The notes under the pieces: generated by a model | Databases searched by the model: none | Seen by the model: only the letters and a program-made list of their open reading frames with translations | Told to the model about the DNA's origin: nothing | Made by a program: the position numbers and the translations under genes | Assembly (NCBI GenBank): GCA_002919265.1 | Contig: PKEY01000077.1 | Coordinates: 1-64,000 of the forward strand | Direction of reading: 5' to 3' | Length of the DNA: 64,000 nucleotides | Source of the DNA: Hyphomicrobiaceae bacterium | GTDB taxonomy: Bacteria > Pseudomonadota > Alphaproteobacteria > Rhizobiales > Hyphomicrobiaceae | In this document: piece by piece, positions 10,133-40,938 of the stretch | Numbering within the stretch: the first letter of the stretch is position 1 | Layout: every line of letters starts with the position of its first letter

Positions 10133-10609
10133 TCAGGCCCTCCTCATCTCGGCGGCTGCGTCCAACACGGCACGAACGATTTTGTCATAGCCCGTGCATC
10201 GGCAGAGATTGCCGGCCAGCCAGTAGCGCACCTCTGTCTCTGTCGGATTGGGATTGCGATCGAGAAGCGCCTTCGCGGCAACGAGAAATCCGGGAGTGCA
10301 GATGCCGCACTGTAGCGCGGCGTGCTCCAGGAACTTCCGCTGCAACGGGTGTAGCTCGTCTCCTCGCGCCATGCCTTCGATGGTCTCGACTGACTTGCCG
10401 TTCGCCTCGACGCCGAGGACGAGGCAGGAGCAGACGAGACGACCATCAAGGATCACGCTGCACGCGCCGCAATCGCCGGTGCCGCATCCTTCCTTCGTGC
10501 CGGTGAGGCCCAACCCGTTACGAAGCACGTCGAGCAGCGTCTCTTCGGTTTCACACAGGGTCTCAACCGGGTCGCCGTTGACTGTGAACGCGATGTGATG
10601 CTTCGCCAT
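10133..10609 (-). CDS. Molybdenum hydroxylase 2Fe-2S subunit
   Basis: A 158-residue iron-sulfur subunit carrying two [2Fe-2S] clusters. The plant-ferredoxin-like N-terminal cluster is in EGCGTGDCGACSVILDG, and the C-terminal helical cluster has QCGICTPGF and GNLCRCTGYDKI. Its length matches the CoxS/HcrC family (about 155-165 residues). It passes electrons from the Mo site of the large subunit to the FAD subunit. It starts one base inside the stop of the FAD-subunit gene (TAATG arrangement) and ends 3 bp before the large subunit, so the order is FAD, Fe-S, Mo subunit in one operon. Confidence 0.95.
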   Translation of the reverse strand: MAKHHIAFTVNGDPVETLCETEETLLDVLRNGLGLTGTKEGCGTGDCGACSVILDGRLVCSCLVLGVEANGKSVETIEGMARGDELHPLQRKFLEHAALQCGICTPGFLVAAKALLDRNPNPTETEVRYWLAGNLCRCTGYDKIVRAVLDAAAEMRRA

Positions 10610-11469
10610 TATCGAGACCTCGCCCGCTCATAAGCCTTCAGTGCTGCGCGGCGCGCCATCACGCCCGCCACCTTAATCCGGAATTCGCGCGTGCCACGCT
10701 TGTCGTCGATTGGCTGGCACGCGGACCTCACCGCTTCCTCGAATCGGGCAAGCGCCTGATCTTCGAGCGAACTTCCGACGAGAGCTTCGGCCGCTTCGGG
10801 CACCAGAAGCGGGCGGGCCGCGACCGCCCCCAGCCCGACGCGCGCTGCCGTGACTTTGCCCTCCTCATTGAGAGTGAGATTAACCCCTGCTCCGACTACT
10901 GCGATGTCCATTTCCGTCCGCGGAATGAAGCGCAGGTAGGCATCAGCCGAACGCGGTGGACGCGGCGGCAAGAAGAACGACACGACGAACTCGCCCTTTT
11001 CCAAGGCCAAGCGGCGCGGGCCCAAAACGACATTCTCGACAGGAAGATCGCGGCGACCGTTCGGGCCGACGACCGTCACCCTGGCGCCAGCCGCAATCAA
11101 AGCGGGCACACTATCTGCCGCCGGTGAAGCGTTGCACAGGTTGCCACCCAGCGTCGCCCGGCCTTGGACTTGCGTTGAGCCGATGAGGTTTGCGGCTTCG
11201 ACGACGCCGGGCCAAACTGTCTTCAGTTCTGGATGCTCCTTCAGCTCCGCACCGGTGACGGCGGCTCCAATCCGAAAGCCACCAGCCTCCCGCTTCACTT
11301 CTCGAAGCTCGGCAATGCGCTTGATGTCGACGAGAAGCTGCGGAGCAATAATGTCGGTTTTGAGCTGGACGAGAAGATCAGTGCCCCCAGCCAGCACGCG
11401 GGCCTCACCCGGTTCATTCGCCAGAAGCGTAACCGCAGCCTCCAGCGTTTCCGGCGCTTCGTAACGCAT
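10609..11469 (-). CDS. Molybdenum hydroxylase FAD-binding subunit
   Basis: A 286-residue CoxM-like flavoprotein. It begins MRYEAPETLEAAVTLL, continues with the FAD pyrophosphate loop VLAGGTDLLVQLK and the second FAD motif ATLGGNLCNASPAADS, and ends in the CO-dehydrogenase flavoprotein C-terminal domain. The ATG preceded by AGAGGA was chosen; a further in-frame ATG lies 7 codons upstream. No 4Fe-4S insert of the 4-hydroxybenzoyl-CoA reductase HcrB type is visible, which argues against that enzyme. It is the first gene of the three-subunit operon and is divergent from the TRAP receptor gene at 11685. Confidence 0.92.
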   Translation of the reverse strand: MRYEAPETLEAAVTLLANEPGEARVLAGGTDLLVQLKTDIIAPQLLVDIKRIAELREVKREAGGFRIGAAVTGAELKEHPELKTVWPGVVEAANLIGSTQVQGRATLGGNLCNASPAADSVPALIAAGARVTVVGPNGRRDLPVENVVLGPRRLALEKGEFVVSFFLPPRPPRSADAYLRFIPRTEMDIAVVGAGVNLTLNEEGKVTAARVGLGAVAARPLLVPEAAEALVGSSLEDQALARFEEAVRSACQPIDDKRGTREFRIKVAGVMARRAALKAYERARSR

Positions 11470-11684
11470 GCGTTTCCTCTGCTGATCCATGGTCGTTTTG
11501 CGCCGTAGCAAATCACACCAAAGCTCATCCGCCAACACGCAAACAGCCGAGCAGATGTGAACGCTGGAGGCTTGACTTCCGCTCGCACGCTACGGGCCGA
11601 TGGTGTAGCTACGATATTGGTGACCACGCCGGTTCGGCGGGCGCCGGGAGAGTGCGTTTTCGACGAGTTGGAGGGTTCGCAGCC

Positions 11685-12734
11685 ATGTCCGTTAGCCGCC
11701 GCACCTTTATTGCCGCTGCCGGAGCCAGCGTCGCTGCTCCCGCGGTGTTGCGCGTGACGAGAGCCCATGCGGCCGAGGTGACGATGAAACTTCACCATTT
11801 CTTGCCCCCGGTTGCCAGCGTGCCCAAGCACATGCTCGAGCCATGGGCGAAGCGCGTAGAAGAAGGAACCGGTGGGCGCCTGAAGATCGAGCTTTACCCG
11901 TCCATGCAACTCGGCGGGACGCCGCCGCAGCTGTACGATCAGGCGAAAGACGGCGTGGTAGATATTGTGTGGACTTTGCCGGGCTACACAGCCGGGCGAT
12001 TCCCATCCACTGAGGTGTTCGAGCTGCCGTTCGTTGCGGCGCGGTCGGCGCGGATCAATGCCCGTGCGGCGCAGGAGTTCGCAGAGGAGCACCTCAAGGA
12101 GGAAACAAAGGACGTCAAGCTCCTTTGCTTCTGGTGTCACGACCACGGGCTCATTCATGCCAAGCGCCAGGTCAAAACGATGGAGGACCTTAAGGGCCTC
12201 AAGCTGCGCTTCCCAACGCGGCTGGCCGGCGAGGGGTTGAAAGCGCTTGGCGCCAGCCCGATTGGCATGCCCGTGCCACAGGTGCCCGAGAGCTTGGCGC
12301 AAGGTGTTATTGATGGCGCGGTTATTCCGTGGGAGGTCGTGCCTTCGATAAAGGTGCACGAGCTGGTGAAATACCACACCGAAATTCCGGGTTCGCCGAC
12401 CTTCTATACGGCGACATTCATGCTTGCCATGAACCGCGCAAAATACGAAAGCCTGCCGGACGATTTGCGGAAGGTTCTCGACGAACAATCCGGTATGGCT
12501 CTGGCGACCGAAGCCGGCAAAATGTTCGATGACATCGGCGCCGAAATTTCGGAAATGGTGAAGAAGCGGGGAAATGTCATTTCCGCAATCAGCGAAGAGG
12601 AAAAGGCGCGCTGGATCGAGGCGACCAAGCCGGTAATCGACAACTGGATCAAAGAGGTTCAGGGTCGAAATATCGACGGGGCGAAATTGCTCGAAGCCGC
12701 GAAAGCGTCGCTTGCCAAATATGAAAAAGCCTGA
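11685..12734 (+). CDS. Tat-exported TRAP transporter solute receptor (DctP family)
   Basis: A 349-residue receptor with a twin-arginine signal (MSVSRRTFIAAAGASVAAPA) and cleavage expected near AHAAEV. The mature protein has the TRAP DctP features KLHHFLPPVASVPKHML, LYPSMQLGGTPPQLYDQAKD and LKLRFPTR (the substrate-clamping arginine lies in this region in characterised members). The ATG giving MSVSRR was chosen over an upstream in-frame start because it gives a clean Tat signal. No DctQ/DctM genes are adjacent. Its divergent position from the molybdenum hydroxylase operon, sharing a 215-bp intergenic region, suggests that it captures the hydroxylase substrate or a related acid. This is inference. 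Confidence 0.85.
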   Translation: MSVSRRTFIAAAGASVAAPAVLRVTRAHAAEVTMKLHHFLPPVASVPKHMLEPWAKRVEEGTGGRLKIELYPSMQLGGTPPQLYDQAKDGVVDIVWTLPGYTAGRFPSTEVFELPFVAARSARINARAAQEFAEEHLKEETKDVKLLCFWCHDHGLIHAKRQVKTMEDLKGLKLRFPTRLAGEGLKALGASPIGMPVPQVPESLAQGVIDGAVIPWEVVPSIKVHELVKYHTEIPGSPTFYTATFMLAMNRAKYESLPDDLRKVLDEQSGMALATEAGKMFDDIGAEISEMVKKRGNVISAISEEEKARWIEATKPVIDNWIKEVQGRNIDGAKLLEAAKASLAKYEKA

Positions 12735-37250: not shown

Positions 37251-37982
37251 TCAGGCTTGGCCGGCAGCTGCGGAAATCATCACTTCTTCCGAGAAGTGCT
37301 CGCTTCCGGCTTCGTTGATGTACCGCCGCAGGCCTTTGACGAAATCGATAAGCTCCAGCTGAACGATCGTTGCGCTCACCGAGTCGTCACTGCAAAGCCG
37401 ATGCATGGCGTGCATTGCGGCTTCGCTGGTGTAGCCCCAGATTGTCTTGAACGTCGCACCTGCAGCCTCGTCGTTGCCGGCAACCCGATAGGTGCCGCCA
37501 TACCGCACGCCCTTGAGCTCGGCATCACCGGACATACGACCTTCGCTGAGGAGAATTTCTCGCGTTGCGAGCCAGCCGGTGAAATCCTCTGCGTCCGTCA
37601 CACGATAGCGCCACGTCACGACGACGGGCGAAATCATGATGCGCTTTTTCAGAAGCTCTTCTGCGTAGGCCCCCAGCATGTAGGGGTTAAACGGAACGCT
37701 GAGACCGGTTCTTACCTGAAAATTGACGGGCTCAGCGCGTGGCTGGGCGCCTTCGGCTCCACGCGTCATATAATTCGAAAACGGAACACTCAAACCCGTA
37801 CGAACCTGAAAATTGACTGATTCGGCAGACGGCGCTTCAGAACCCACCCGTTCAATCATGTAGTTCGAAAATGGAACGCTCAGACCGGTGCGAACCTGGA
37901 AATTGATAGGTTGTGCTTCCGGCGTTGGCACAATAGCAGCCGCCTGGAACTGTCGCGCAAGCCTCTCGCGATAGGAAGTCAT
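37251..37982 (-). CDS. Repeat-containing putative RiPP precursor fused to a C-terminal domain
   Basis: A 243-residue protein with no family I recognise. Residues 26-42, 56-72 and 86-102 are near-identical copies of [I/V]NFQVRTGLSVPF-x-x-YM, spaced exactly 30 residues apart. The linkers between copies are variable and rich in Ala, Glu, Gly and Pro. Repeats 1 and 2 have SN before YM; repeat 3 has NP. The C-terminal 140 residues (from about 103) are a mixed alpha/beta, apparently globular region with RIMISPVVVTWRYRVTDAED and a helix-rich middle, resembling a small dimeric alpha-beta fold. The ATG is preceded by a strong GAGGAGG ribosome-binding site. It is the last gene of the S8 peptidase-radical SAM-PqqD operon, 79 bp after the PqqD gene. 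I infer a multi-core precursor whose repeats are modified by the radical SAM enzyme; this is unproven. Confidence 0.6.
   Translation of the reverse strand: MTSYRERLARQFQAAAIVPTPEAQPINFQVRTGLSVPFSNYMIERVGSEAPSAESVNFQVRTGLSVPFSNYMTRGAEGAQPRAEPVNFQVRTGLSVPFNPYMLGAYAEELLKKRIMISPVVVTWRYRVTDAEDFTGWLATREILLSEGRMSGDAELKGVRYGGTYRVAGNDEAAGATFKTIWGYTSEAAMHAMHRLCSDDSVSATIVQLELIDFVKGLRRYINEAGSEHFSEEVMISAAAGQA
37677..37907 (-). repeat. Three 90-bp-spaced coding repeats in the putative precursor gene
   Basis: Repeat 1 is at 37857-37907, repeat 2 at 37767-37817 and repeat 3 at 37677-37727, each 51 bp with 39 bp between them. Repeats 1 and 2 differ at 8 synonymous positions out of 17 codons but by only one conservative residue (Ile/Val). 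Repeat 3 changes two further codons (SN to NP). High synonymous divergence with constant protein sequence shows selection on the peptide rather than a recent duplication. Confidence 0.95.
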
Positions 37983-38061
37983 GACCCCTCCTCAATCTGT
38001 CTGCATGGTGGATCTTTTTTTCATGGGCGCTTCAGACGCGCCTCTTGCATCGCGCAGTCGT

Positions 38062-38349
38062 TCATTCGACGGCGCTGATGATGTTGCGGTTCAGGAGCTC
38101 GGTGAAACCGGAATGAAACTGCGCTTTCGCCTTGTCCCGACCGATCTTCGGCCCGACAGTTGCAACGTAGTCCGCTTCGATCTGTTGAAATGGCCGCCCA
38201 TCGCACAGTTCGACGATGAACCAGGCACTAGCGTTGAGGTCGTAGATTTCCGGATCGTCAGGCGTGAACGCATAGCAGCGCCCCCACTCCTCGAACCGCC
38301 TCAACACGACGTTATTCGCTTTCGCGTAGCAGCCGTTCCGGGAGAGCAC
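38062..38349 (-). CDS. PqqD-like peptide chaperone (RiPP recognition element)
   Basis: A 95-residue protein. It reads through FEEWGRCYAFTPDDPEIYDL, then LNASAWFIVELCDGRPFQQI with the characteristic LCDGR of PqqD proteins, and ends with FTELLNRNIISAVE (helical C-terminus). PqqD-type proteins bind the leader peptide of a radical-SAM-modified substrate and present it to the enzyme. The start is GTG preceded by GAAGGAG at 9 nt; this lies inside the 3' end of the radical SAM gene (38-bp overlap, different frame). It is not seen in databases I know under this exact context. The arrangement rSAM-PqqD-precursor is the order of classical PQQ-like RiPP loci. Confidence 0.8.
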   Translation of the reverse strand: MLSRNGCYAKANNVVLRRFEEWGRCYAFTPDDPEIYDLNASAWFIVELCDGRPFQQIEADYVATVGPKIGRDKAKAQFHSGFTELLNRNIISAVE

Positions 38350-39358
38350 GGAGGTCCACTCCTTCGTTGGTGTGCACACAATAGGGATCTGGTGCCGACC
38401 AGCGGCCGTGGAAGGCGTATGCCGTTGCGCGACAGCCGCCGAAAGTGCCCTGGGTCGCTGAGCATTCCGGGCACGCTTTTTCGACCGCGTTAGAGCGCAG
38501 CTCGCGGTAAAGCGGATGGTTCCAGGTTTCGACGAATGGCGTTTCGAGAATATTCCCGTAATTGACGTACTCGCGCAAATACGGGCAGCCAATGGAATCG
38601 CCGTGTGGGCTGACGGCAGCGTTCTGCCAACAGCAATTTCCGTCGCGCGGATGCCAAGACTGCATGAGCTGCACGCCCGGCGGAACTTTGAGGCTGTGCA
38701 GGGCACTCATCATCTCATCAAGGGAAAGCGACAGCTCAGCCCAATTCCGCTTCGCGCGTCCGAGAGGGTAAAGCCGCAGAATACCGACCTGGTCGCAACT
38801 AAGCTCGGCGGCGAGATCGAGATAGCGCTGCAGATGCTGATAGTTCTTTCGCGAAAGTATGCCGAGGATGGTAACTTTCAGGCCGGCCGCAAGGGCATTG
38901 CGGATGCCGTTGATAGCGGCATCAAAACTGCCCGGGGTGCCAGTTAACTCGTCCTGTATTTCGGGAATGGCAGCGAAGAGATCGACATATAGACGACCGA
39001 CGCCGAATGTCTTGAGACGTTCGGCGCGTGCGGCATCGATCAGCGTGCCATGCGTCCGAATGGCGACATAGAGGCGCCGATTGCAATGGGCCAGGATTTC
39101 TTCGAAATCTGCCCTATGGAAGGGCTCGCCACCTTCAAAGAATATGTGCAAGAAATCTTCTGCGACGAGTTGATCGATAAAGCCCTTCCATTGCTCGGTC
39201 GTGAGCTCCGGGCGCTTGCTTGAGCCGCAGTCTGCGTAGCAAAGCATGCAGTCCATGCTGCAAGTTTGAGTGACGCAGATTGTCAATTTGAAAGGCTTTT
39301 CAAGCTTGGGGACGCGCTGGGGTGCAGCCACGTTCCCAATGCGAACGATTTCGTTCAC
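38312..39358 (-). CDS. Radical SAM/SPASM-domain enzyme
   Basis: A 348-residue enzyme. The radical SAM [4Fe-4S] motif is CSMDCMLC (C33, C37, C40; C-x3-C-x2-C), followed by GGEP (76-79) for SAM binding. The C-terminal SPASM region has cysteines near 242, 243, 258, 296, 299, 309 and 327, including CPECSATQGTFGGC, which would bind auxiliary Fe-S clusters. SPASM enzymes install cross-links or other C-C, C-S or C-N bonds in peptides. The GTG start overlaps the TGA of the upstream peptidase gene (GTGA), so translation is coupled; a longer in-frame ATG upstream lies inside the peptidase gene and was rejected. Confidence 0.88.
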   Translation of the reverse strand: MNEIVRIGNVAAPQRVPKLEKPFKLTICVTQTCSMDCMLCYADCGSSKRPELTTEQWKGFIDQLVAEDFLHIFFEGGEPFHRADFEEILAHCNRRLYVAIRTHGTLIDAARAERLKTFGVGRLYVDLFAAIPEIQDELTGTPGSFDAAINGIRNALAAGLKVTILGILSRKNYQHLQRYLDLAAELSCDQVGILRLYPLGRAKRNWAELSLSLDEMMSALHSLKVPPGVQLMQSWHPRDGNCCWQNAAVSPHGDSIGCPYLREYVNYGNILETPFVETWNHPLYRELRSNAVEKACPECSATQGTFGGCRATAYAFHGRWSAPDPYCVHTNEGVDLRALPERLLRESE

Positions 39359-40938
39359 GCCGCCACCTTTTCCATTGAATGCCGCAAAGTGATCGGACCA
39401 TAGCCGAAACGCGGGTCCCACATCGTCCTTCGATCAGGTGGGCAAAGGCACTGGGCCCAATGCTCCTGGTCGTAAGGTTGTTCCGCGGGAATTTGCTGCA
39501 TCTGAAGCGCCACCAGGCCCGAGGTCAGCGCCGCGGCAACGCTTGTTCCGCTGGATTCGGCGAAGCCCGATGATTTTGAACGCGCGCCCCAAATTCGATG
39601 ACCGGGTGCTGTCACAAGAGGCGCTCTGAAATTGGACCACGGCAGTGGCCCGAGACTGGAAAAAGGAAAAGGCGCTACAGCTTCCTTTCGGAGGTGATCG
39701 TACGCGCCGACGACAATTGCTCCCGGAGCACCTGAAAGACAGGAAAGCGTTGACGTAGGATGGCTGGGATAAAGCGTTGAACGGTTCCCTGGCCCATCAT
39801 CTCGCTCGAGCCAAGCGTGCAACACTGCCACCCCACTGGTTTCGGTCGCGGCGCACCGAACGGTGAAAACGACCTCGTCGGAGTCATTGGGCCACGCAGA
39901 TTTCGGGAAGAATGGCGGATGCAGTAGGATGCGTGCGCGAGAGAGGGGATCTCGGGCATTCGGCACATGATCGGCGATGCCGATACGGACATCCCCCAAC
40001 TTGATGCTGTGTGTCTGGCCGGGAGAGATCGTTTGCGAAAGCGGCGTGCCATGCAATTCGAGGCCAATTAAGATGGGTGCTTTGGCGCGGTACCAGATTT
40101 CCAGTTTGTTTTGCGTAAGATCGGTGCGGAACATCCGCCAGGCAAATGAGAGCGGCTGACCCGGCTCGACGACCCCGCTGAAATGCCCTTCCTCCAAGCC
40201 AGCGTTGCCAGCGCTGATTACGACAGCGCAGGGAAAACGGTCGAAACGCGCACGAGCCAGAACTTGGGATATTTTCTGCTCGACAGGCGATTTCCCGTCA
40301 TGGGCTCCGGCATAAGCACCGATACTGAGGTTGATGACGAGCCCGCGCGCACGAATTCTCCGCGCACGATCGTAGATGTATTCGAGGGCAGAACTAATCT
40401 GCTCGGCTTCGTCGTAGTTGCGCCAGCCCGACCAAGTAGGTTCCGCCTCTGGTCTCCATGAGATCCAGGTTGGCGTGCCGCGCTCATCTTCCTCCTTCCA
40501 ATGATGGTCGAGGAGGCCGACTTGCACAGCGATCAACTCGGCTGCAGGCGCGACACCACGGAATCCGGCAATTGCGCTGCCGGCTGCAGCAGAGGCGATA
40601 AAAGTGCCGTGGGCGCCCTGACCTACACCGGCGCGGCCGAAATAATTGGCGTGTGGATCGTAGACTTTATCAACCGGCTCTCGGGATTGGCGCTCCTCCG
40701 CGATTGTGATCAAGCGGTCGATCTCATCACCATCGAACTCACGGCCTGTATTTTGATCCCAGAGATAGCGAAATCGCGATCTGCCGCTGGCAAGGTCTCG
40801 AAAACACGAATGCAGGATGTCGAAGCCGTAGTCGACGAATCCGATCGCGACCCCGCGCCCGTCAAGGCCGGTCTCCAGCGGTGGCACCCCTAGGTGGTAG
40901 AGAGCACGTGCGTTGAAGGATTGCGCACGGTTTGCCAT
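39355..40938 (-). CDS. Cytoplasmic subtilisin-like (S8) peptidase
   Basis: A 527-residue S8-family serine protease. The catalytic triad is Asp36 (FVDYGFDILHS), His110 (GAHGTFIASAAAG) and Ser466 (SGTSVAAALTSG), with the oxyanion-hole region VVISAGNAGLEEG. A roughly 180-residue insertion between His and Ser contains a beta-rich domain (LSFAWRMFRTDLTQN, HAWLERDDG). No signal peptide or propeptide is seen. The ATG giving MANRAQSF follows GGAG at 7 nt and is preferred to one six codons upstream. As the first gene of the operon, before the radical SAM, PqqD and repeat-protein genes, it is the likely maturation protease that cuts the modified peptide from its precursor. This role is inferred from context. 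Confidence 0.88.
   Translation of the reverse strand: MANRAQSFNARALYHLGVPPLETGLDGRGVAIGFVDYGFDILHSCFRDLASGRSRFRYLWDQNTGREFDGDEIDRLITIAEERQSREPVDKVYDPHANYFGRAGVGQGAHGTFIASAAAGSAIAGFRGVAPAAELIAVQVGLLDHHWKEEDERGTPTWISWRPEAEPTWSGWRNYDEAEQISSALEYIYDRARRIRARGLVINLSIGAYAGAHDGKSPVEQKISQVLARARFDRFPCAVVISAGNAGLEEGHFSGVVEPGQPLSFAWRMFRTDLTQNKLEIWYRAKAPILIGLELHGTPLSQTISPGQTHSIKLGDVRIGIADHVPNARDPLSRARILLHPPFFPKSAWPNDSDEVVFTVRCAATETSGVAVLHAWLERDDGPGNRSTLYPSHPTSTLSCLSGAPGAIVVGAYDHLRKEAVAPFPFSSLGPLPWSNFRAPLVTAPGHRIWGARSKSSGFAESSGTSVAAALTSGLVALQMQQIPAEQPYDQEHWAQCLCPPDRRTMWDPRFGYGPITLRHSMEKVAA

Follow-up and report, generated by a model that had tools for sequence, protein, structure and literature searches.

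A candidate peptide-maturation operon with a radical SAM/SPASM enzyme, a PqqD-like protein and a three-core precursor in a Hyphomicrobiaceae bacterium

What is made from a protein that carries three copies of a 17-residue repeat and whose gene is packed together with those of a radical S-adenosylmethionine (SAM)/SPASM enzyme, a PqqD-like protein and an S8 protease? The question is raised by positions 37251-40938 of a 64 000-nucleotide stretch of contig PKEY01000077.1 from a Hyphomicrobiaceae bacterium (assembly GCA_002919265.1), here called the window, in which the four genes lie on the - strand as one compact operon (Table 1). An earlier note on this DNA had read them as a system for a ribosomally synthesized and post-translationally modified peptide (RiPP). 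The positions, sizes and packing of the four leftward genes were confirmed, and our analysis favours the same general answer, with a probability of roughly 0.58: a RiPP-type maturation operon in which the leader of the precursor is held by the PqqD-like protein, its cores are altered by the radical SAM enzyme and the chain is cut by the S8 protease. The idea that the operon matures a peptide, the repeat protein being its likely substrate, is supported, as judged by co-occurrence at 23 of 23 loci; details of the proposal are revised below.

The radical SAM gene, the PqqD-like gene and a gene whose product bears a [VL]R[TS] motif are found together at every one of 23 loci of one radical SAM family, which spans Alphaproteobacteria, a Burkholderiaceae metagenome-assembled genome (MAG) and Actinomycetota. 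These loci (L numbers; genomes have G numbers) comprise the window, L013 (from G290), the 19 loci L014-L032, L083 and L094. A contig scan of one genome per species (84 980 species) with five radical SAM queries gave 64 loci, of which L014-L032 are family members at 44% identity or more and the other 45 (L033-L077) were dropped as outside it; 19 is a lower bound because two strict peptide patterns were used. L083 came from a class-wide radical SAM search and L094 from a search with the S8 protease; neither was reached via the motif and both fit the pattern. Precursor searches of whole genomes, with the query genome included in each count, were positive in 3 of 103 genomes within the family and 4 of 397 within the order, the latter adding distant versions with a single core from two genomes of the same genus, of which Bradyrhizobium sp. 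CSA112 (the contig of L016) is one; other whole-genome searches were positive in 2 of 385, 1 of 2 and 1 of 396. The 23-locus family splits from the outgroup in the tree with support of 100/100, which rests on a single outgroup of two near-identical Paenibacillus rows (L033/L034, 32% identity). Gene calls at the relatives' loci were greedy and included shadow open reading frames (ORFs), and the gene identities used are those checked by Pfam or profiles unless given as 'by reading'.

Of the 22 precursors measured, 21 have the motif starting at residue 27-33 and one, that of L025, at residue 19; in the precursor of L013 it starts at residue 31, which brings the total within this range to 22 of 23. 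Only 2 of 116 control ORFs of the window have it at residue 27-33. L094 has a further [VL]R[TS], at residue 15, that the position filter did not take in, the position in L031 was counted from the first residue after a stop, there being no ATG, and some precursor start codons were chosen by hand. Given this near-fixed position, the precursor appears to consist of a short helical leader followed by a core. Across loci the core follows roughly the pattern [VILM]xx[QEDHV][VL]R[TS][GSED], and the actinobacterial short precursors are near-identical around QVRTSKYAL[FL]PEPKD. A three-residue cyclophane was set aside, as the position two residues beyond the core Phe/Tyr is not constant (N, P, G, D and others occur).

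In the window the repeats start at residues 26, 56 and 86, 30 residues apart, and contain neither Cys nor Trp, as the earlier note had said. The DNA changes between them are mostly silent (synonymous differences, pS, 0.54-0.73; nonsynonymous, pN, 0.03-0.15), so the repeated peptide appears to have been kept by selection. Three cores are present in the window and L014 and five in L015, three loci that cluster together in the tree (92/78), and a single core is present at the other 20. The expectation that homologous operons would share the repeats therefore held for the motif but not for its repetition, and three cores are not a basic feature; judged from these sequences, one core would be the usual state and three or five an expansion.

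The core is followed by a C-terminal domain in 18 of the 23 precursors (very divergent in two Elioraea loci), so that the order of core before globular domain, previously regarded as unusual, is real but usual; the remaining five precursors (L019 and L028-L031) are peptides of 51-56 residues without the domain. AlphaFold2 models the window precursor, at low confidence (mean pLDDT 56.7), with a helix at residues 3-13, disorder over residues 17-103 and a beta-alpha-beta-beta-alpha-alpha-beta domain at residues 120-236; SnoaB, LsrG and IsdG are among its best Foldseek matches, none with E <= 0.001. The model of the one-core Bradyrhizobium precursor is somewhat better (mean pLDDT 67.7), and nine chains from four NIPSNAP entries make up all of its Foldseek matches with E <= 0.001 (best 2.5e-4; TM to target 0.63-0.73), with ABM-type oxygenases ranking next. 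As modelled, the domain is a NIPSNAP/ABM-like barrel, a match at the level of the fold; among 10 precursors none matched a NIPSNAP or ABM family in Pfam and no Pfam family scored above its cut-off, L015 and L083 showing sub-cut-off matches to other families only. Sequence searches with the precursor gave no match in the PDB up to an E of 1 and none among plasmids.

A domain kept this widely, with NIPSNAP chains and then ABM-type oxygenases as its structural matches, would suit a substrate whose modified tail stays on it as a built-in cofactor while the S8 protease only trims the leader. This would resemble the quinohemoprotein amine dehydrogenase (Qhp) system, in which, as PMC7876137 describes, the substrate is an enzyme subunit (QhpC), the radical SAM enzyme is QhpD and the 28-residue leader is removed by a cytoplasmic subtilisin-like protease, QhpE. 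We consider such a role unlikely here, although it has the domain in its favour: the five short precursors do without the domain, the expansion to three and five cores looks like multiplication of a product, and the QhpD model (TIGR03906) scores above its cut-off in none of 10 genomes, that of the window included. Sub-cut-off QhpD matches occur in 9 of these 10 genomes versus 12 of 14 control genomes. Qhp, proposed earlier as the nearest analogue, thus holds as an analogy only.

The radical SAM enzyme of the window matches Radical_SAM (1.3e-18) and SPASM (2.4e-8) in Pfam. The CX3CX2C motif is intact in 19 of the 23 family enzymes (16 of the 20 aligned, plus L013, L083 and L094) and missing from all four actinobacterial ones, which form a single clade (support 100/100) and retain EGGEP and five invariant cysteines in the C-terminal half. 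Asp36, His110 and Ser466 of the S8 protease, which had been named as its catalytic residues, are borne out by their invariance in eight aligned S8 proteins, that of the window among them, and no signal peptide is visible by eye in the window protein. The PqqD-like protein of the window aligns over its full length with 19 relatives at 24-81% identity.

Several observations weigh against the RiPP-type reading. In Pfam the PqqD-like protein scores 21.8 bits (2.4e-4) on PF05402, for which the gathering score is 23.4, and those from L016 and L028, the two relatives tested, have no NCBIfam match. An S8 gene is found no more than 8 kb from the radical SAM gene at 11 of the 23 loci and is missing from that range at the other 12; the contigs of L018, L023, L025 and L031 end early. 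The protease had been expected as a necessary step and as one of four co-occurring genes; it is present in the window, but with this distribution it would be accessory or replaced in trans, as otherwise it is no universal step. The precursor was located via the motif at most loci, including all five with short peptides, so the presence of the motif is independent evidence mainly for G268/G290, whose precursors came from a precursor profile search, and for L083 and L094. Finally, the four actinobacterial loci retain the [VL]R[TS] motif and the PqqD-like partner with an enzyme that lacks the radical SAM cysteines.

Because motif and partner stay where CX3CX2C is lost, [VL]R[TS] may serve the SPASM or PqqD-like protein as a grip rather than being the residues that are altered, with the change falling on neighbouring residues or being made by another enzyme. 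A second radical SAM gene does adjoin the first in L030 (PF04055 5.4e-20; best models B12-type but below cut-off, as is B12-binding), with a close look-alike in L028 and L029 by reading, and the residues flanking the motif vary widely. The triplet is, however, the sole invariant part in the 19 loci with intact cysteines, as would also be expected of a substrate residue, and we regard a mere grip as improbable. That the enzyme works on a tetrapyrrole or another small molecule, the repeat protein having an unrelated role, is very improbable: NirJ2 (139.6 bits) and AhbD (130.5 bits) are with MftC (137.8 bits) its best NCBIfam scores, but lie far under cut-offs of 500, 500 and 265 bits, respectively, the PqqD-like gene and the motif protein accompany the enzyme throughout, and the 32%-identical Paenibacillus enzymes, of which L033 precedes a gene resembling by eye a siroheme decarboxylase, stand outside the family.

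From what is directly established, namely a recurrent set of genes, a motif and where it lies in the chain, the excess of silent changes, the intact catalytic residues and the predicted fold, we infer the catalytic steps of the maturation pathway as follows. The PqqD-like protein would bind the N-terminal helix of the precursor as a leader and pass the chain on to the radical SAM/SPASM enzyme. The enzyme would then act by radical chemistry on each core, three times per chain in the window; as [VL]R[TS] is strictly kept, alteration is to be looked for first at its Val/Leu, Arg or Ser/Thr. The S8 protease would cut the chain in the cytoplasm, freeing the cores or removing the leader. To judge from neighbouring genes, an EamA transporter may export the product in two close relatives and at one Roseomonas locus, and a nitroreductase may finish it in the two close relatives; both genes are missing from the window.

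Table 1. Features of the operon, in positions of the window.
Feature	Position	Strand	Basis
S8 (subtilisin-type) serine protease, cytoplasmic, 527 aa	39355..40938	-	PF00082 3.7e-21; Asp36/His110/Ser466
Radical SAM/SPASM enzyme, 348 aa, GTG start, CX3CX2C intact	38312..39358	-	PF04055, PF13186; alignment, tree
PqqD-like peptide-binding protein (putative), 95 aa, GTG start	38062..38349	-	PF05402 2.4e-4, below gathering score; aligned with 19 relatives
Precursor protein, 243 aa: leader, three cores, C-terminal domain	37251..37982	-	In no Pfam or NCBIfam family
Ribosome-binding-like site GAGGAGGGG, strong, before precursor start	37985..37993	-	Sequence
Putative leader, residues 1-24	37911..37982	-	AlphaFold2 helix 3-13; fixed motif distance in relatives
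Core repeat 1, INFQVRTGLSVPFSNYM, residues 26-42	37857..37907	-	
Core repeat 2, VNFQVRTGLSVPFSNYM, residues 56-72	37767..37817	-	
Core repeat 3, VNFQVRTGLSVPFNPYM, residues 86-102	37677..37727	-	
C-terminal alpha/beta domain, about residues 118-237, ferredoxin-like fold (dimeric barrel, NIPSNAP/ABM type) in models	37272..37631	-	Models and Foldseek

The genes are tightly joined: the GTG start of the radical SAM gene at 39358 overlaps the S8 stop codon as GTGA, the GTG start of the PqqD-like gene at 38349 sits within the radical SAM gene (an overlap of 38 nt) and 79 nt separate the PqqD-like from the precursor gene. None of the four products scores above the cut-off of an NCBIfam model (for the radical SAM enzyme, among the best 25 of 62 matches). 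The G+C content of window:37000-40499 is 0.56-0.59 per kb, slightly under that of most of the surroundings (about 0.60-0.62).

The cyclase, CRP, nitroreductase and EamA genes beside the relatives' operons, like the actinobacterial enzymes without CX3CX2C, go beyond the earlier note. Within 8 kb of the radical SAM gene there is a class III cyclase at 15 of the 23 loci, a CRP-type regulator at seven and an EamA transporter at three, as found with profiles that were in part built from these loci and so necessarily match those used (S8 eight, cyclase six, CRP four, EamA two). Two of the L019 assignments are doubtful, the cyclase (20.8 bits, Pfam cut-off 21.9) and the S8 match (weak, 2e-13, and on the opposite strand). 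No linked cyclase or CRP gene was seen in the window, L014 or L015. In 10 genomes searched at E <= 1e-6, class III cyclases are single in G871 and G865, each beside the radical SAM system, and number 2 to 38 in the other eight; eight genomes have between 5 and 24 CRP-type genes each. The chance products for linkage, 8e-15 for the cyclase (eight genomes) and 2e-10 for CRP (six genomes), both overstate the case because they cover link-bearing genomes only (G000, G097 and four actinobacterial genomes being left out, and for CRP also Bradyrhizobium) and treat related loci as independent. Since many loci adjoin genes for a class III cyclase-AAA protein and for a CRP-type receptor, there is probably a tie between a cyclic-nucleotide signal and either the expression of the pathway or its product. 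Roseomonas nepalensis has, besides its short-peptide locus L019, a complete second set at L094:1748-9553 (cyclase-AAA, S8, radical SAM, PqqD-like, one-core precursor and CRP-type regulator), and the sister MAG PRO8 has a further set, with one core, a cyclase, CRP and S8 (L024:1354-9790), in addition to the three-core L014.

In L014 and L015 (= L006) a nitroreductase gene precedes the S8 gene and an EamA gene follows the precursor gene (L014:5521-6198 and 10481-11452; L006:5653-6390 and 10573-11745), with identities between the two loci of 64% for the nitroreductase and 49% for EamA. The window genome (94.8% complete) gives only weak partial matches to both while the genes flanking the window operon read like those of L014, so that the two genes were most likely lost from the window copy. 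At the short-peptide loci Pfam identifies cupin-like proteins (L028 and L031), an MFS transporter (L028), a methyltransferase (L031) and EamA (L019). At L025, which has no S8 gene near, the precursor gene is followed by one for a putative metalloprotease (L025:8012-8776; HEIGHVLG by eye, Peptidase_M8 16.9 bits, cut-off 21) that may replace S8. PADLOC matches (pVip, subtilase, PycC and IetS) look like generic superfamily matches, and an anti-phage reading was set aside.

A wider scheme can be offered tentatively, and we doubt that all of it will hold: a modified [VL]R[TS] peptide would act within a cyclic-nucleotide circuit, sensed or answered by the cyclase-AAA and CRP-type proteins, the precursor would double as a NIPSNAP/ABM-fold protein, and the actinobacterial enzyme would have turned into a SPASM scaffold without radical chemistry, presenting the same motif to other tailoring enzymes. 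If the maturation pathway is as proposed, it adds a radical SAM peptide family whose kept motif lacks Cys, Trp or any other aromatic residue, and the reaction is for that reason probably unusual. The natural series of one to five cores would ease testing of the chemistry, the active and cysteine-less enzymes paired with one motif would provide a natural comparison, and a peptide pathway would be recurrently tied to cyclic-nucleotide signalling genes.

No published account of this gene set was found in the open-licence literature searched, for several searches among the best matches only. The closest general parallels are the pyrroloquinoline quinone (PQQ) and mycofactocin pathways (PqqE/PqqD/PqqA and MftC, respectively), in which a SPASM radical SAM enzyme and a small PqqD-type partner act on a ribosomal precursor, as proposed for the window. 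The window enzyme, however, lies below the cut-offs of both models (137.8 bits versus 265 for MftC, TIGR03962; 112.5 bits versus 381.35 for PqqE, TIGR02109). Those pathways' precursors are not known to have a related core, whereas here repeated cores accompany a folded C-terminal domain, and the S8 neighbour and, in relatives, the cyclase neighbours are further differences. A link to thiazole/oxazole-modified microcins (TOMMs), raised by the strong L023 cyclase match to the TOMM system kinase/cyclase model TIGR03903, was dropped: seven linked cyclases score 362.6-608.4 bits, all below the cut-off of 705.75, and of two unlinked controls L096 (494.7 bits) beats five of the six linked cyclases compared and L098 (183.4 bits) falls below all, so that the match does not mark linkage.

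With Qhp, as PMC7876137 presents it, the window shares a radical SAM enzyme and a cytoplasmic subtilisin-like protease. It differs in having cores without Cys and a PqqD-like partner, and the QhpE model does not match the window S8 protein and gives that of L083 only 24.7 of 165 bits. By the tests made, it belongs to none of the PQQ, mycofactocin and Qhp systems, and its proposed mode of action is that of a RiPP pathway. In the TVG pathway (TvgA/TvgB), a radical SAM/SPASM enzyme acts on a precursor in which a short Val-containing motif recurs, with loss of 2 Da (section of PMC9062424 describing TVG). That motif is TVGG, whereas it is QVRTG here, and the same section contains no S8/PqqD/cyclase set. 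The likeness lies in the SPASM radical SAM enzyme and the repeated short Val-containing motif, and by analogy TvgB, as that section describes it, offers a useful precedent for a SPASM enzyme that acts repeatedly on such a motif.

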